This document shows, piece by piece, positions 5,654 through 39,083 of a DNA stretch of 49,978 nt. Within the stretch, counting starts at the first letter, position 1. Each line of letters begins with the position of its first letter. Source of the DNA: Candidatus Kaiserbacteria bacterium. GTDB taxonomy: Bacteria; Patescibacteriota; Minisyncoccia; Phycocordibacterales; Phycocordibacteraceae. A program made the position numbers and the translations under genes. Below the pieces are notes generated by a model, which made no database searches, was not told the DNA's origin, and worked only from the letters and a program-made list of their open reading frames with translations. The DNA lies in contig JACRFL010000014.1 of assembly GCA_016217905.1 (NCBI GenBank), forward strand, positions 1 to 49,978. Direction: 5' to 3'.

Positions 5654-5665
5654 TAAACCAAGTAT

Positions 5666-5724
5666 AGCGCAAAACAAGGTTTGACCTTAATTCAGATTTC
5701 CAAGGTCAAACCTTGTTTTGCGCT
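5666..5724. repeat. 23-bp-arm inverted repeat (CAAGGTTTGACCTT core) abutting the lepA stop
   Basis: AGCGCAAAACAAGGTTTGACCTT (5666-5688) / AAGGTCAAACCTTGTTTTGCGCT (5702-5724), perfect complement. Confidence 0.9.
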
Positions 5725-7552
5725 ACTCGGTTGATGAGTGCACCATCTTCATAAAGACTTCTTCGGGAATGTTCACTTTGCCGCGGCCGCGCTCGAGCAA
5801 TTTCTTCTTGCCGCGCTTCTGTTTGTCGAGAAGCTTGTTCTTGCGCGAGACGTCGCCGCCGTAGAGGTAGCCGGTAACGTCCTTGCGCATCGCGGAGAGC
5901 GTCCGTGAGGCGATGATGCGCCCGAGCGAGCGCGCCTGTATCTTCGTGACGAAGAGCTGCTTAGGCAAAATCGCGTGCAGCTTCTCGACCATTTTTTCCG
6001 CTTCCTCCTCCACGCGACGACGCGCGACTACCCGCACGAACGCGGGCACCGCCTCCTCGGCGACGAGCACGTCAAGCCGCACGACATCCGCTTCTCGCTC
6101 CGGAAGAATCTCGTACGAAAGCGAAGCGTACCCCGAAGATATACTCTTCAATTTGTCGAAAAAGCCGCGCATGAGCTCCCGGAGCGGCATCTCGATGCGC
6201 ATCTCGACGCGGCCGTCCTGGTACGTCTCGGTATGAAGCGTCTGCGCCTCGTGATCGTAGAGCATCTGGATGAGCGCGCTCACGAATTCGGGCGGCGTGA
6301 TGATAATGACTTTTGTCCACGGCTCTTCGATCTTCTCGATGTCGCCGTGCTCGGGGAATTTCGCGGGCGTGTAGACGGTTTCTCGCGCGCCGTTCATTTT
6401 TGTCACCACGTACGAGATCGTCGGAATGGTCACGATGAGCGAAAGGCCGAATTCTCTCCGCAAGCGTTCCGTGACGATCTCAAGGTGCAGAAGCCCGAGG
6501 AAGCCGCATCGAAATCCCCTCCCGAGCACGCCGGAGGACTCTTCCTCAAAAGAGAGCGACGAGTCGGAGAGCCGGAGCCGCTCGAGCGCCTTCCGCAGGA
6601 GCGGAAGGTCGTCCTGGCTCTCCGGGTACACCGACGCCCACACGACCGGCCGCGGCCGCTCGTAGCCTGGAAGAGGCCCGAGGATGCCCTTCGCGAGACC
6701 GATAGTGTCGCCGACCGCGACGATACCCGGCTCTTTGATTCCGGTGACGATGTAGCCTATTTCGCCGGCAGAGAGCGAGTCGGCGGGCGTCTCCCCCGGC
6801 GTGAAGACTCCGGTCTCGAGGGCGATGAAATCCTTCTCTGCGGCATGAAAAGCAAGCGGTTGCCCTTTTTTAAAGGTGCCGTCGAATACGCGCAGGTAGA
6901 CCGCGATGCCGCGATGCGTCGAATACGAGAAATCGAAAATGAGGCCGCGCGGCTCCTCCGCGGCCAGAGCGGCCTTGCGCGACGGGGGTGGTATGCGGTT
7001 CACGATCGCTTCGAGCAACGCATCGACCCCTTGTCCCGTCTTCCCCGAGACGGCAAGAACATCGTCGGGAGACATATGCACGAGTTTCGCAAGTTCGGCC
7101 TTCACTTCGTCGGTGCGCGCCGCCGGTGCGTCTACCTTGGAGACAACCGGAATGATGACGCACTTTTGTGCCACGGCGGCGGCAAGAGTCGTCAAGGTCT
7201 GCGCCTGTACGCCCTGCGTCGAGTCGACCAGGAGAAGCACCCCCTCGACCGCGTGGAGCGCGCGCGAGACCTCGTAGGAAAAATCGATGTGCCCGGGCGT
7301 ATCGATCAGGTTGAGGACGAATTCCCGTCCCTCGCTTCGCTCGGGACCTGCAGAATGGTACGCCATTCTTACGGGTTGCATTTTGATGGTGATGCCGCGC
7401 TCGCGCTCGAGATCCATGCGATCGAGCACCTGGTCGCGCATAAGGCGCTCTGGAATGGTGCCCGTGCGCTCGAGCAAGCGGTCGGCCAGGGTCGACTTCC
7501 CGTGGTCGACGTGCGCGATAATCGAAAAGTTGCGGATGCGGTTTTGGTTCAC
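5723..7552 (-). CDS. lepA: elongation factor 4 (LepA)
   Basis: [43 protein letters not shown]-terminal MKMVHSSTE. Confidence 0.97.
   Translation of the reverse strand: MNQNRIRNFSIIAHVDHGKSTLADRLLERTGTIPERLMRDQVLDRMDLERERGITIKMQPVRMAYHSAGPERSEGREFVLNLIDTPGHIDFSYEVSRALHAVEGVLLLVDSTQGVQAQTLTTLAAAVAQKCVIIPVVSKVDAPAARTDEVKAELAKLVHMSPDDVLAVSGKTGQGVDALLEAIVNRIPPPSRKAALAAEEPRGLIFDFSYSTHRGIAVYLRVFDGTFKKGQPLAFHAAEKDFIALETGVFTPGETPADSLSAGEIGYIVTGIKEPGIVAVGDTIGLAKGILGPLPGYERPRPVVWASVYPESQDDLPLLRKALERLRLSDSSLSFEEESSGVLGRGFRCGFLGLLHLEIVTERLRREFGLSLIVTIPTISYVVTKMNGARETVYTPAKFPEHGDIEKIEEPWTKVIIITPPEFVSALIQMLYDHEAQTLHTETYQDGRVEMRIEMPLRELMRGFFDKLKSISSGYASLSYEILPEREADVVRLDVLVAEEAVPAFVRVVARRRVEEEAEKMVEKLHAILPKQLFVTKIQARSLGRIIASRTLSAMRKDVTGYLYGGDVSRKNKLLDKQKRGKKKLLERGRGKVNIPEEVFMKMVHSSTE
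7327..7347 (-). repeat. palindromic GPERSEG-type element inside lepA
   Basis: GTCCCGAGCGAAGCGAGGGAC on minus strand, encoding GPERSEGR between AYHSA and EFVLNLIDTPGH. Confidence 0.7.
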
Positions 7553-12107: not shown

Positions 12108-14493
12108 ACACTATTTCGCACGTCCCGCCGGCGCAGGCGAGTTCCTTTTTCATCTCCGTCTCATCCTGGCGCTCGTACGTAATAAGTTTAGAATAATCCA
12201 CTTTCGGGAAGCGGGCCACGCGCTCCTCATATTCCTCTTCCGTTATTGTTTCGTACGGCGCGAGGCGATACACGTGGTTGCTTCGCGGGAGAAAGGAGAG
12301 ACCGCCGATAATATTCCAGTTCTTCTGGATCCAATCGACGACACCGATCCACTCGTCTTCGCTCACTGAAATGGTCGCCGACGGATTGTGTTCGGTGTAG
12401 TTCAGCTTCACCCGCTTCCAGTACTCAAGCTGATCGAGCGCGGTGAGGTCATCCTTGAAGCGCGCCTCCTTCGAGTGATCGGGCGCTTTTACCGGGAATT
12501 CGAACACGAACGTGTTCGCTTCTTCGAGCGACTGCCCCACTTCCGGATAATACGGAACGCCCTGGTCACGCAACATTTTGAAGAGCGAATCGGTCGCGCT
12601 GATGCGCACGCGACGGATATAGTACGGCGCGTGGCGCGGGTGGATGCCGGAGGAACAGTTAAAAGTCTGGGAGACGGAGCCGGAGGGCTTCACTGCGGTG
12701 ATCGCCATCGACCGCTCAATGCCGAAACGCTTCGCGTAGGCGACATTCGTCTTCACCGCCATGTCGCGGATCTTGCGCATCACTTCCGGCTGTCGCGCCG
12801 CAGGCGAATCCCATTGACCGGTTACCGAGACGCCGAGGAGCCGCTCCGCCCTGTTGTGGTCCGTCCAATCCTGGGAAATGTAGCTAAACTTTGTCAGGGT
12901 CGACTGATAAGTGCCGAGAATGGACGCGAGGCGCGCCTTGCGCAGAAGGGACGTCTCCGTATCGCTTGCGCGCGCGATCACCTCGGAGAGATTGCAGAAC
13001 TGCTTGGACTGCAGGATGATTTCGGCGCAGGGGTTCGTGCCGATAGAGCCGCGCACGACGCCGTCCTCGCCGATGAATCCGACCTTTTTGAAGTAGTCTG
13101 CGCGGCGCGCGGGGAAGGTTTTTGCGAGCGATCCTCGGTTGAAGATTCCCCGCTCGCCGCTTCCGCTTTTCATGAGCGCGACCCACTCGTCCATAAGCTC
13201 GGCGTTAGTCGGCTGCACCTCGTAGACGGCGGAGTTGTTCGCGACCGAACGGTGCGGATCGGTCATAAAGAACTGACCTTTCTTCGCATCGCGCATCTCC
13301 ACGTCGTCGAGATCGGAGAGCGAGATCATCGCCGTGCGGCGCACGCCGCCCGCGACCACGCACTCCCCTATCTTGCAGATGATGTCGTGCGCATCGATCG
13401 AGCGCAGGCGGCGTCCCTGCCGGGCGAGAACATGCTCGCGCGCAAATGCGAGCAGGGAGCGCAGCGGTTCGGGACCGCTTGCTTTCCCGCCCATCGTCTT
13501 CAGCCGCGCGCCCGCCGGACGGATCTGGGAGTAATCGAAGGCGATGTCTTTGCCTGCATACCACGTGGTGAGCCCGAGGGTGAGCGCGTCGCACCACCCC
13601 TCTTTCGAGTCAGCGATGACGTGCGCCGGCAGTTTTTCTCCCATCTGTTTCCTGATCTGCGGGAGCTGTTCGATATTTTGGCTCTCGACCGCAAAGCCGA
13701 CGCCGCATCCCTGCATCGAGAGGTACATGATCTCGGCGAAATCTTCGAGCTTGGTCGGCGCAATGAAGGTGCAGTTATAGGCGCAGGTGTTGCAGCGGCG
13801 CGCCGCCTCGCCGGCAAATTGCATAAGCCGCATCGACGGCATCACTTCCTGCTTCAAAATGCCCATGCGCACCTCCGCGTACTCTTTTTCGGTGAGCCTA
13901 TCGCCGAGATTCTCGCGCATGAAGCTCATATAGCGATCCACGGTCTCCACCCACGTTTCGCGCCGCCCCTCTTCGGGAATCCATTTCGCATACGTACGCA
14001 GATAGACGAATTCGCCGAGCGCGTTTCCTGCAAAGTATTTTTTGCTCTCCTCCGCGAGCTTCCGCACATGCTCGGGTATCTCGACGTGTGCCGCGCGCAG
14101 TTGTGCGCGTTTATCGCGGTACAAAATGTATGCTTTCGCCGTCTTTACGTAGTCGTTCAAAATAAGATATTTTTCGACCGAATCTTGCATGCCTTCGACC
14201 GTCGGAAGAAAACTCTTGTATTTTTTAGAAAACCGAGCGAGCTCGCCCGCAACCTGATGCGCCACAAGCACCGCGTCTTCTTGACCTCCCTCTCCGGCTT
14301 CGATCATCGCTTTCCATACCGCGGTGGAAATTTTATCGAAATCGAACGGCACGAGCCGTCCGTCGCGCTTCTCGACCTGCGGGATCATCTCGCGATAGCG
14401 GAGCGTTTCTCTCGAAGCGGGCGGTTCGATCGCTTTCGAAACGGGAGTTGGGGACGTTTTCGTACGAGCGGTGATTTTCGCGGTCTTCGACAT
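12106..14493 (-). CDS. nrdJ: adenosylcobalamin-dependent (class II) ribonucleotide reductase with N-terminal ATP cone
   Basis: VEKRDGRLVPFDFDKISTAVWKA (ATP cone), CNTCAYNCTF, NPCAEIILQSKQFCNLSE, AVKPSGSVSQ, C-terminal CAGGTC dicysteine; no radical-tyrosine or glycyl-radical motif seen. Confidence 0.9.
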   Translation of the reverse strand: MSKTAKITARTKTSPTPVSKAIEPPASRETLRYREMIPQVEKRDGRLVPFDFDKISTAVWKAMIEAGEGGQEDAVLVAHQVAGELARFSKKYKSFLPTVEGMQDSVEKYLILNDYVKTAKAYILYRDKRAQLRAAHVEIPEHVRKLAEESKKYFAGNALGEFVYLRTYAKWIPEEGRRETWVETVDRYMSFMRENLGDRLTEKEYAEVRMGILKQEVMPSMRLMQFAGEAARRCNTCAYNCTFIAPTKLEDFAEIMYLSMQGCGVGFAVESQNIEQLPQIRKQMGEKLPAHVIADSKEGWCDALTLGLTTWYAGKDIAFDYSQIRPAGARLKTMGGKASGPEPLRSLLAFAREHVLARQGRRLRSIDAHDIICKIGECVVAGGVRRTAMISLSDLDDVEMRDAKKGQFFMTDPHRSVANNSAVYEVQPTNAELMDEWVALMKSGSGERGIFNRGSLAKTFPARRADYFKKVGFIGEDGVVRGSIGTNPCAEIILQSKQFCNLSEVIARASDTETSLLRKARLASILGTYQSTLTKFSYISQDWTDHNRAERLLGVSVTGQWDSPAARQPEVMRKIRDMAVKTNVAYAKRFGIERSMAITAVKPSGSVSQTFNCSSGIHPRHAPYYIRRVRISATDSLFKMLRDQGVPYYPEVGQSLEEANTFVFEFPVKAPDHSKEARFKDDLTALDQLEYWKRVKLNYTEHNPSATISVSEDEWIGVVDWIQKNWNIIGGLSFLPRSNHVYRLAPYETITEEEYEERVARFPKVDYSKLITYERQDETEMKKELACAGGTCEIV

Positions 14494-24767: not shown

Positions 24768-24813
24768 GCAGCGGAAGACGGCAGCGGAAGGGCAGCGGAA
24801 GACTGTCTTCCGC
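24768..24813. repeat. GCAGCGGAAG direct repeats (x3) plus palindrome GCGGAAGACTGTCTTCCGC
   Basis: GCAGCGGAAG at 24768, 24781, 24792; palindrome 24795-24813, identical at 39050-39068. Confidence 0.85.
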
Positions 24814-29181: not shown

Positions 29182-31362
29182 GTGCATTACGACGATACTA
29201 TTGAAAAGCATTTTACGCGGCTCCGGCCGGAGCAAAAAAAGGCATTGCATAAGCTCGGGATACGGACCATTCGCGATTTGTTGTATCACTTTCCCGCGCG
29301 CTATGAAAACGCGGGGCCGACGGGGACGATTGCAGGTGTGGCCGTAGGCGCGGAGGTGACACTCTATGGCACGGTGCGCAAGCCGGACATCAGAAAGACG
29401 TGGAAGACCCGTCGGCCGATCGCCGAGGCATGGCTTGAGGACGCGTCGGGGAAAATTAAGATGATGTGGTTCAGTCAACCCTATATCGCCAAATCGCTCC
29501 ACGACGGCATGGTGGTGAAGGTGAGTGGAAAAGTGGCAGGAACGGGGGCCAAAATATACTTGGCCAATCCGGAGATCGACAGGTCGCCCATCACACCGGA
29601 GGATGCGCACGATTCTCTCTTTCATCAAGGTCGAACCTTGCAACAAGGTTCGACCTTGGATACGGCACGGTATCCCGTGTATCCCGAGAGCCAGGGTGTC
29701 TCCTCACTCTGGCTCATGCATGCGATACGGAAAATCTTCGAGACTAAAGCGCATGAACACATCGAAGACCCTATTCCTGCTGACATCCTCGCGCGTTACA
29801 ACCTCCCCTCGCTCTCATCCGCGCTCGTTTTCATACACGCGCCGCATAAGTTATCTGATGCGACTGCGGCCCGCAAGCGATTCGCCTTCGAAGAGGTGTT
29901 CGCGCTCCAGATTGTGATGCAGCGGCGACGGCGCGCGCTTCTACAGGAAGAGGCGCTGCCGGTCGCGGTCGACCGGCGCGCGCTTGCCGACTTCGTCGCC
30001 TCCTTCCCCTTCCCCGCGACTGCGGCGCAGATGCGCGCAATCGACGCCATTGTCGCGGATTTTGAAAAAACGCACCCGATGCTTCGGCTGCTTGAGGGCG
30101 ATGTGGGTAGCGGCAAAACCGCGGTCGCTGCCGCGACCGCGTACATGGTGGCAACCTCCCTACCCAAGGGCCGCATAGCAGGCACACTACAAGTCGCCTA
30201 TCTCTGTCCCACCGAGATCCTCGCGAAGCAGCATTTTTCCACATTCGTTTCTTATTTTAGGGACCATCCCATCCCCATCGGCCTCATCACGGGCAGCGAG
30301 TGCCGCAAGTTCCCTTCCCGCGTGCGGTACGAAGAGTCCGCAAAAATTGCGAAGCCGGCGTTCAAAAAAATGGTCGCGAACGGCGAGATACCGATCGTCA
30401 TCGGCACGCACGCGCTCATCGAGAAGTCGCTCTCACTTCGATATTTCGCCTACGCCATCATCGACGAGCAGCACCGCTTCGGCACCGTCCATCGGCAAAA
30501 GCTGGCGACAAAAGGCACCATCGCGCCTCACTTACTTTCAATGACGGCAACGCCCATCCCCCGCACGCTCGCGCTCACGCTCTACGGCGATCTCGATCTC
30601 ACCCTTCTCGATGAAATGCCGTTGGGCAGAAAAACAATCATCACTCAGGTGCTTGCTCCGAAAGAGCGTGAAGAGGCGTACACGCGCGTCCGAAAGGAGC
30701 TCGCGCTCGGTCATCAGGCGTATGTCATCTGTCCGCGCATCGACGAGCCCGACCCCGCCAAGGAGCTTGCGCTTCAGGCGAAGTCGGTCAAAGCAGAGGC
30801 GGCGCGCCTCAAGAAGGAAGTGTTTCCCCACGCAACAATCGATATTCTGCACAGCAAGATGCGGCCGGCAGAAAAAGAAGCGACGATGAAAAAATTCGAG
30901 ATGGGAGAAGTCGACATTCTCGTTGCCACCTCGGTGGTGGAGGTGGGCGTCAACGTCCCGAACGCGACCGTCATCCTGATCGAAGGCGCTGAGCGCTTCG
31001 GGCTCGCGCAGCTCCACCAGTTGCGCGGCCGTGTCTTGCGCAGCACGTACCAGTCCTACTGCTTCGCACTCCCTGAATCGTTCGGCTCTTCGACGCGCGA
31101 GCGCATGAAGGCGTTTGTTACCGCGAAAAACGGCTTCGAGCTCGCGGAATACGACCTCGCGCTTCGCGGCGCGGGCGAACTCGCGGGCGGGAAGCAGTGG
31201 GGCGTCTCCGACATCGCGATGGAGGCGCTGAAGAACATTAAACTCGTGGAGGCGGCACGCGCCGAAGCAGCGCGCCTCGTCGCGAGCGATCCGGAATTAC
31301 GAAATTATCCGGAACTCAAAGCCCGCGCCCGCACCATCGACCGGCAGATGCATTTGGAATAA
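29182..31362 (+). CDS. recG: ATP-dependent DNA helicase RecG (GTG start)
   Basis: LLEGDVGSGKTAVAAA, IIDEQHRFG, SMTATPIPRTLALTLYGDL, VATSVVEVGVNVPNAT, QLHQLRGRVLR. Confidence 0.97.
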   Translation: MHYDDTIEKHFTRLRPEQKKALHKLGIRTIRDLLYHFPARYENAGPTGTIAGVAVGAEVTLYGTVRKPDIRKTWKTRRPIAEAWLEDASGKIKMMWFSQPYIAKSLHDGMVVKVSGKVAGTGAKIYLANPEIDRSPITPEDAHDSLFHQGRTLQQGSTLDTARYPVYPESQGVSSLWLMHAIRKIFETKAHEHIEDPIPADILARYNLPSLSSALVFIHAPHKLSDATAARKRFAFEEVFALQIVMQRRRRALLQEEALPVAVDRRALADFVASFPFPATAAQMRAIDAIVADFEKTHPMLRLLEGDVGSGKTAVAAATAYMVATSLPKGRIAGTLQVAYLCPTEILAKQHFSTFVSYFRDHPIPIGLITGSECRKFPSRVRYEESAKIAKPAFKKMVANGEIPIVIGTHALIEKSLSLRYFAYAIIDEQHRFGTVHRQKLATKGTIAPHLLSMTATPIPRTLALTLYGDLDLTLLDEMPLGRKTIITQVLAPKEREEAYTRVRKELALGHQAYVICPRIDEPDPAKELALQAKSVKAEAARLKKEVFPHATIDILHSKMRPAEKEATMKKFEMGEVDILVATSVVEVGVNVPNATVILIEGAERFGLAQLHQLRGRVLRSTYQSYCFALPESFGSSTRERMKAFVTAKNGFELAEYDLALRGAGELAGGKQWGVSDIAMEALKNIKLVEAARAEAARLVASDPELRNYPELKARARTIDRQMHLE
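29626..29658. repeat. 33-bp palindromic element in frame inside recG
   Basis: CAAGGTCGAACCTTG-CAA-CAAGGTTCGACCTTG; exactly 11 codons (QGRTLQQGSTL). Confidence 0.9.
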
Positions 31363-35708: not shown

Positions 35709-35723
35709 CAAGGTTCAACCTTG
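35709..35723. repeat. CAAGGTTCAACCTTG palindrome followed by TTTTATTT
   Basis: Same CAAGGTT/AACCTTG core as at 5666-5724 and 29626-29658. Confidence 0.8.
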
Positions 35724-39009: not shown

Positions 39010-39049
39010 ATGTACGTGCCACCATTCTACACTATTGTTCCTTGAATTT

Positions 39050-39083
39050 GCGGAAGACTGTCTTCCGCAAGTTGTCTTCCGCA
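39050..39083. repeat. GCGGAAGACTGTCTTCCGC palindrome plus extra half copy
   Basis: GCGGAAGACTGTCTTCCGC (39050-39068) then GTTGTCTTCCGCA; identical to 24795-24813. Confidence 0.85.

Follow-up and report, generated by a model that had tools for sequence, protein, structure and literature searches.

The recG gene in a contig of Candidatus Kaiserbacteria bacterium (JACRFL010000014.1, positions 1 to 49,978; this whole stretch of 49,978 nucleotides is called the window) contains a 33-bp palindromic element in the middle of its coding sequence, which raises the question of what this element is and how it came to lie there in frame. In our reading the element is, with a probability of roughly 0.87, a doublet of repetitive extragenic palindromes (REP) of the REPIN-like kind, i.e. 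two inverted copies of a palindrome with the core AAGGTYNRACCTT, recognised by a REP-associated tyrosine transposase (RAYT).

The palindromic insert of recG

The open reading frame at 29182-31362 encodes RecG, with wedge, DEAD and Helicase_C domains (Pfam). The sequence CAAGGTCGAACCTTG-CAA-CAAGGTTCGACCTTG occupies positions 29626-29658 in frame, and a check of the window confirmed both the coordinates and the letters given in the original prediction, which had described perfect 15-bp arms and 11 codons placed before YPVYPESQG. The element consists of two 15-bp palindromes (29626-29640 and 29644-29658), which are mutual reverse complements. Since each half is palindromic and is at the same time the reverse complement of the other, the whole 33 nt would fold as a 15-bp hairpin in single-stranded DNA; for this hairpin, with CAA as the loop, the DNA fold gave -16.4 kcal/mol (z -9.4). 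The insert contributes the 11 codons of QGRTLQQGSTL, residues 153-163, immediately N-terminal to YPVYPESQG, and its palindrome is free of stop codons in every reading frame.

29182-31362, plus strand: recG, 726 aa, host gene of the insert (domains, comparison with 1gm5)
29626-29658, no strand: very probable REP doublet (REPIN-like, 3-nt spacer), encodes QGRTLQQGSTL in recG (sequence, loop alignment, fold)
29626-29640, no strand: REP unit 1, CAAGGTCGAACCTTG (sequence)
29644-29658, no strand: REP unit 2, CAAGGTTCGACCTTG, reverse complement of unit 1 (sequence)

Copy number in the genome and in its relatives

The window is contig C10 of a Patescibacteria-type genome of 610 kb in 15 contigs, 95% complete (the present genome). 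Within the window CAAGGTYNRACCTTG was found 5 times with at most 2 mismatches, against 0.33 expected from shuffles. Genome-wide, the 15-mer occurred 5 times and its reversed control 0 times, and the 13-bp core AAGGTYNRACCTT had 11 exact occurrences in the 610 kb, both in genes and between genes. The two related intergenic copies in the window that had been predicted, at 5666-5724 and 35709-35723, are both real. In the former, the outer arms TAGCGCAAAAC/GTTTTGCGCTA are perfect over 11 bp.

5665-5725, no strand: intergenic doublet of the recG-insert family, cores at 5676-5688 and 5702-5714, spacer AATTCAGATTTCC (sequence, fold)
35709-35723, no strand: intergenic single REP of the recG-insert family, followed by TTTT, terminator-like (sequence)

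Among the related genomes CAAGGTYNRACCTTG was present in 67 of 195, with at most 25 copies each and with almost no hits of the reversed control; even inside one genus the copies ranged from 0 to 25. A search for the core with free centre gave 54 cores in the congener G013 and 39 in G039 (reversed control 0), and the congeners as a whole are patchy, from none to 54. Many copies form inverted doublets in which the two units start 25-28 apart and are separated by related spacers (e.g. AGCCCAGAATTCTC or AAATCCGAATCCTC). Such doublets occurred in 32 of 191 genomes and never with the reversed control, and the examined part of G013 holds 16 of them. Some intergenic copies sit directly 3' of a gene. 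The sequence AAGGTATCACCTT at G013 C2:132776 looks like a chance match, not a REP.

Association of the palindromes with RAYT genes

In two relatives, G136 and G013, a RAYT gene has the palindrome directly on either side and, in frame, within its own coding sequence, where it encodes QG[RS]TL, the peptide found in RecG. RAYT-like genes are common in the Patescibacteria, or candidate phyla radiation (CPR). In a scan using one genome per species 80 related RAYT loci were kept, from Parcubacteria-type lineages (Kaiser-, Nomura-, Yonath-, Adler-, Lloyd-, Taylor-, Zambryski-, Ryan-, Yanofskybacteria and others); RAYT relatives were also sought in viral contigs and none were found. Matching palindromes lay on both sides of the RAYT within 120 bp in 56 of 77 loci, compared with 0 of 1069 control windows from the same loci. 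The flanking cores vary with the RAYT (AAGGTYNRACCTT, GAGGTYNRACCTC, AAAGGACNGTCCTTT, TAGGTCTTGCCTA, AAGGACTCCCCTT and others). An in-frame internal palindrome sharing the core of the gene's own flanks was detected at nucleotides 135-205, near codon 53, in 36 of 78 loci, one of which (L312) is doubtful, its match being of A/T only. The internal core equalled the flanking core of the same locus in 32/36 cases, against a mean of 3.6 and a maximum of 11 when the loci were permuted (500 permutations). Since these own-flank matches are far above the permuted loci, the internal and the flanking REPs diversify together.

The RAYT protein is about 220 aa long and matches PF01797 (Y1_Tnp) over the cut-off. 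Its AlphaFold model has a confidence score (pLDDT) of 90.9; the internal copy corresponds to the stretch of lowest confidence, residues 51-60, between a helix and the strand leading to the HUH motif. Among PDB entries the model most resembles 4er8 (E 1.1e-5), the structure of a RAYT in complex with a REP hairpin. The HUH histidine H83 and Y141, which is aligned with Y115 of 4er8, are invariant in 66 RAYT sequences, and H81 is at least 90% conserved. Within the genus, a close RAYT (at least 58% identity) goes along with 4-25 copies of the palindrome per genome, whereas genomes without one have a median of 0 (Mann-Whitney p 2e-6, with no correction for relatedness).

The recG loop as a repeated target

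The loop that precedes YPxYPES was measured between fixed anchors in 70 RecG proteins of the genus: most species have 46-51 residues there, others as many as 82. The original prediction regarded the element as a mobile palindrome tolerated in a protein loop, which implied that close relatives should lack the segment. This was the case: the 11 residues are absent from most of the 70 congeners, and RecG of T. maritima (1gm5) is about 15 residues shorter at this loop. Conservation of the segment in distant RecG proteins was looked for as well and was not found.

The longer loops hold at least 10 palindrome families: the AAGGTCGAACCTT doublet (5 species), AAGGTGGAACCTT, GAGGTTCAACCTC, AAGGTCTAACCTT, GGACATCCGATGTCC, GGACAAGTCNGACTTGTCC, GGGAAAGTCAGACTTTCCC, GGGGATGTTAAACATCCCC, GGATTTAAATGTTAAACATTTAAATCC and GGGTGGACACNNNGTGTCCACCC. 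In the loop of G015 two families are stacked. Three of the families have copies that bracket a RAYT, namely AAGGT, GGGTGGACAC (RAYT at G013 C2:58161-58918) and GGACATC (RAYTs in G007, G048 and G069). Since most RecGs are without the insert and unrelated palindromes occupy the same loop, the sequence of the insert is not required in recG. Five species carry an identical 33-bp doublet, the spacer codon apart: all 10 palindrome codons are the same, whereas outside the insert only 80 of the 481 recG codons that can be compared (17%) agree.

Elsewhere in the gene, at residues ~320-342 just before the conserved LQVAYL, the recG of G087, G015, G032 and G063 (L115-L118) has a second, non-palindromic insertion of ~20-40 residues.

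Palindromes in frame in other conserved genes

The present genome contains at least 7 palindrome families. CTTGGAGGCCNGGCCTCCAAG flanks the RAYT on contig C3 (5706-6374) with one copy per side, and two further copies lie in frame inside this gene, encoding QLGGRASKL and QLGGPASKL. The RAYT on C15 lies between copies of GCGGAAGACNGTCTTCCGC. Two GGACGTNNNACGTCC palindromes enclose a RAYT fragment of 117 nt on C3 (13791-13907); the unit at 13740-13946 is apparently a decaying REP/RAYT unit, the REPs of which persist at ~11 sites. Members of two of these families are found in the window.

474-506, no strand: in-frame REP of the CTTGGAGGCCNGGCCTCCAAG family in tsaD, encodes KLGGPASKF; cognate RAYT on C3 (sequence comparison)
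24795-24813, no strand: REP of the GCGGAAGACNGTCTTCCGC family; its RAYT on C15 (sequence comparison)
39048-39070, no strand: REP of the GCGGAAGACNGTCTTCCGC family, upstream of an Nramp gene (sequence comparison)

About 21 of the 47 REP sites of the present genome (~45%) are in frame in conserved genes other than RAYT, a site being accepted when similarity to G013 was present on both sides of it. The hosts are RecG, LeuRS, TopA, AlaRS, HisRS, TsaD, TsaE, MiaA, Tgt, TrmD, PrmC, DnaX, HolB, RNase HII, transketolase, P-type ATPase, cysteine desulfurase and others. In G013 at least 11 such sites were found, in DnaG, DnaE, TsaD (two sites), TopA (two sites), DusB, UvrA, UvrB, UvrC, AlaRS and peptide deformylase, and the inserted residues are mostly absent or different in the counterparts of the present genome. 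In TsaD, AlaRS and TopA the two genomes were struck at the same place by different families or different doublets. The prevalence of repair and replication genes in G013 (DnaG, DnaE, TopA twice, UvrA, UvrB, UvrC) is striking but uncalibrated, as the conserved genes of a tiny genome are mostly informational and uvrB, uvrA and uvrC are clustered. The insertion in recG is tolerated, as originally suggested, yet it is not a single event but one case of a recurrent habit which involves many REP families, many genes and the same loops.

Three further observations were made on the distribution of the palindromes. The adjoining uvrB, uvrA and uvrC genes of G013 (C5:127466-133128) each have an in-frame REP doublet within ~6 kb. 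CCCGCCCCNNGGGGCGGG lies near contig ends of the present genome (C8:104, C11:127146, C14:108 and C15:108) and is probably a repeat that broke the assembly. In the exonuclease III gene of G013 (C9:3077) a REP-like core lies in the conserved motif YSKVEP with no extra residues relative to the present genome; it may be due to chance or to in-place change or conversion, and not every palindrome is an insertion.

Outer arms of the doublets

Perfect inverted repeats of 5-12 bp surround 11 of the 16 doublets of G013, and the sequence of these arms varies among the copies. The two arms of the same copy pair over 5.5 bp on average, those of different copies over 1.2 bp; across genomes the effect is weaker (3.0 versus 0.71). 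For three G013 proteins (UvrB, UvrC and DnaE), inspection by eye suggests that one of the two arms encodes residues conserved in the protein family, so that its partner has the look of an inverted copy. Inverted arms of this kind would result from strand switching at the hairpin while DNA is replicated or gaps are repaired, which is a candidate for their source.

A TyrRS-like gene (by eye) has the AAGGTYNRACCTT palindrome at the matching place in four relatives (L026, L028, L032 and L033); its outer arms differ among them but are always complementary.

Proposed mechanism and alternative explanations

In the model suggested here the RAYT, a Y1/HUH single-strand transposase, would recognise the hairpin in single-stranded DNA, cut beside it and join it elsewhere. 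When the inserted length is divisible by three and the landing site is a length-tolerant loop, the gene would survive with a presumably neutral insert of 5-20 residues.

Several results weigh against this interpretation. Transposition itself was not observed, and we infer that the palindromes are moved by the RAYT. The RAYT stays below the NCBIfam REP_Tyr_transpos cut-off (50.5 of 80 bits), and several many-copy genomes, e.g. G039, G047, G052 and G082, show only more distant RAYT relatives. No intact AAGGT-type RAYT was found in the present genome, in its 95%-complete assembly, and it was therefore probably an earlier or a transferred RAYT that left the recG copy behind as a resident. The GTAG or CGTC tag, which defines two large described REP super-families, was not found at the hairpin foot: in 338 flanks outside the palindromes GTAG was counted 3 times versus 4.0 expected, CGTC 4 times versus 5.6. 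With the tag absent, the element is filed as a RAYT-associated REP-like element, not as a GTAG or CGTC REP. Finally, the five species that share the identical doublet lie scattered over the RecG tree, computed with the loop left out (5 changes, equal to shuffled labels). Such a pattern demands that one position was hit more than once, that the doublet was lost, or that a very short tract was transferred.

If a short piece of recG had passed from species to species, in place of separate insertions, the same position and register in scattered lineages would be accounted for. However, the codons outside the palindrome have diverged along recG, so the transferred tract would have to be very short, and the other families in the same loop mark it as a site that was struck repeatedly; we consider such a transfer unlikely. 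Less probable still is an old, vertically inherited insertion kept for a function of its DNA or peptide, be it as part of a RecG loop, as a regulatory mRNA hairpin or as a site at which the RAYT binds to a repair gene. The identity of all 10 palindrome codons in the five species would favour it, as would the insertions in many other replication, repair and tRNA genes, but the scattered carriers do not: a tree with the five in one clade was 105 log-likelihood units worse, borderline in the approximately unbiased (AU) test (p 0.04), which disfavours a single inherited insertion, and most RecGs of the genus have no insert while others have unrelated palindromes in the same loop. The data are better explained by several insertions at one position, or by REP-by-REP conversion, than by one old insertion with neutral decay, and selection at the nucleotide level may yet act on the doublet.

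That the palindromes are locally arisen intrinsic terminators or other transcription signals is very improbable. The copy at 35709-35723 is followed by TTTT and some intergenic copies stand directly behind a gene, and a hairpin with a T run at a gene end does describe this single copy, but not the coding ones, with ~45% of the REP sites of the present genome in frame inside conserved genes; moreover, it is the core sequence and not merely a hairpin that the copies and the RAYT flanks have in common. The least credible possibility is a non-mobile recognition sequence of the whole genome, such as a DNA uptake signal (USS/DUS) or a Chi-like site. A short conserved core in genes as well as between them would suit it, whereas an uptake sequence is expected in hundreds of copies and only 11 cores exist in 610 kb, many congeners having none; the palindromes were added as extra codons rather than evolved in place, and they are tied to RAYT genes.

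Returning to the REP doublet served by a RAYT, a wider reading can be put forward tentatively: REP/RAYT systems of Patescibacteria may normally inhabit coding DNA, with the RAYT and its own in-frame REP evolving together, with insertion or later strand switching setting a perfect inverted copy of the target flank around each doublet, and with unrelated families landing time and again in the same loops of enzymes that serve replication, repair and tRNA. Together these would amount to a distinct form of single-strand transposition, adapted to coding DNA. If the interpretation as REP/RAYT is right, genomes that are very small and short of intergenic space harbour many REP families inside essential proteins. 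This would account for odd short inserts in annotated CPR proteins and would provide a natural scan, by insertion, for tolerant loops of RecG, TopA, aminoacyl-tRNA synthetases and repair enzymes. Two questions would become testable: by which route REPs spread, and what makes intragenic REPs recur in DNA repair genes and tRNA genes of unrelated phyla. For RAYT genes that have a REP of their own in frame, self-recognition or autoregulation is predicted.

Comparison with known systems

REP/REPIN sequences and their RAYT (TnpA_REP), the 'REPtron', have been described in Pseudomonas, E. coli, Stenotrophomonas and Marinomonas (PMC3116915, PMC3733652, PMC8266576), and by analogy our element would work like a REP/REPIN population served by a RAYT (PMC3116915, PMC8266576). 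The short palindromes, the inverted doublets with a short spacer, the palindromes on both sides of a Y1/HUH RAYT, the one palindrome family per RAYT and the patchy copy number are common to both. In contrast to the REPtron, the core here is fully symmetric and lacks the GTAG or CGTC tag, roughly half of the sites are in frame in conserved genes whereas REPtron REPs are mainly extragenic, the RAYT gene has an in-frame copy tracking its flanking palindrome, and the outer arms are perfect inverted repeats that differ from copy to copy.

Intragenic GTAG/CGTC REPs are known from O. terrae, Thioalkalivibrio, Thauera, Xanthomonas and R. conorii; in these phyla they occupy uvrA, uvrB, dnaE, aminoacyl-tRNA synthetase and tRNA-modification genes, and recB of two Xanthomonas was struck at about the same site (PMC3733652). 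In-frame REPs as such are therefore not new, and the likeness extends to the short in-frame inserts in repair, replication, aminoacyl-tRNA synthetase and tRNA-modification genes and to the common doublets. The differences are the other phylum, the other, untagged palindromes, the use of one recG loop by at least 10 families across species, and intragenic sites that are common, not exceptional.

The original prediction had named the Rickettsia palindromic elements (RPE) as the analogue. The in-frame palindromic inserts in many unrelated housekeeping proteins of a small-genome bacterium do agree with it, and RPE-4 and RPE-6 have been equated with CGTC REPs (PMC3733652). The RPE descriptions nevertheless set the two apart, RPE-1 being longer (PMC3733652) and the present elements being ~13-61 bp and tied to a RAYT, and a REP doublet of a RAYT family is the better description. 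With IS200/IS605 (TnpA Y1) and the miniature inverted-repeat transposable elements (MITE) our system shares the transposase superfamily and the recognition of a single-stranded hairpin, predicted here; it differs from them by the RAYT of ~220 aa and by RAYT-flanking palindromes that share their core with dispersed repeats. The literature searched yielded no paper on REP or RAYT systems of Patescibacteria/CPR; as far as this search extends, the new features are the REPs in Patescibacteria, the co-diversifying in-frame RAYT copy, the repeated occupation of one loop by families unrelated to each other, and arms that are specific to each copy.
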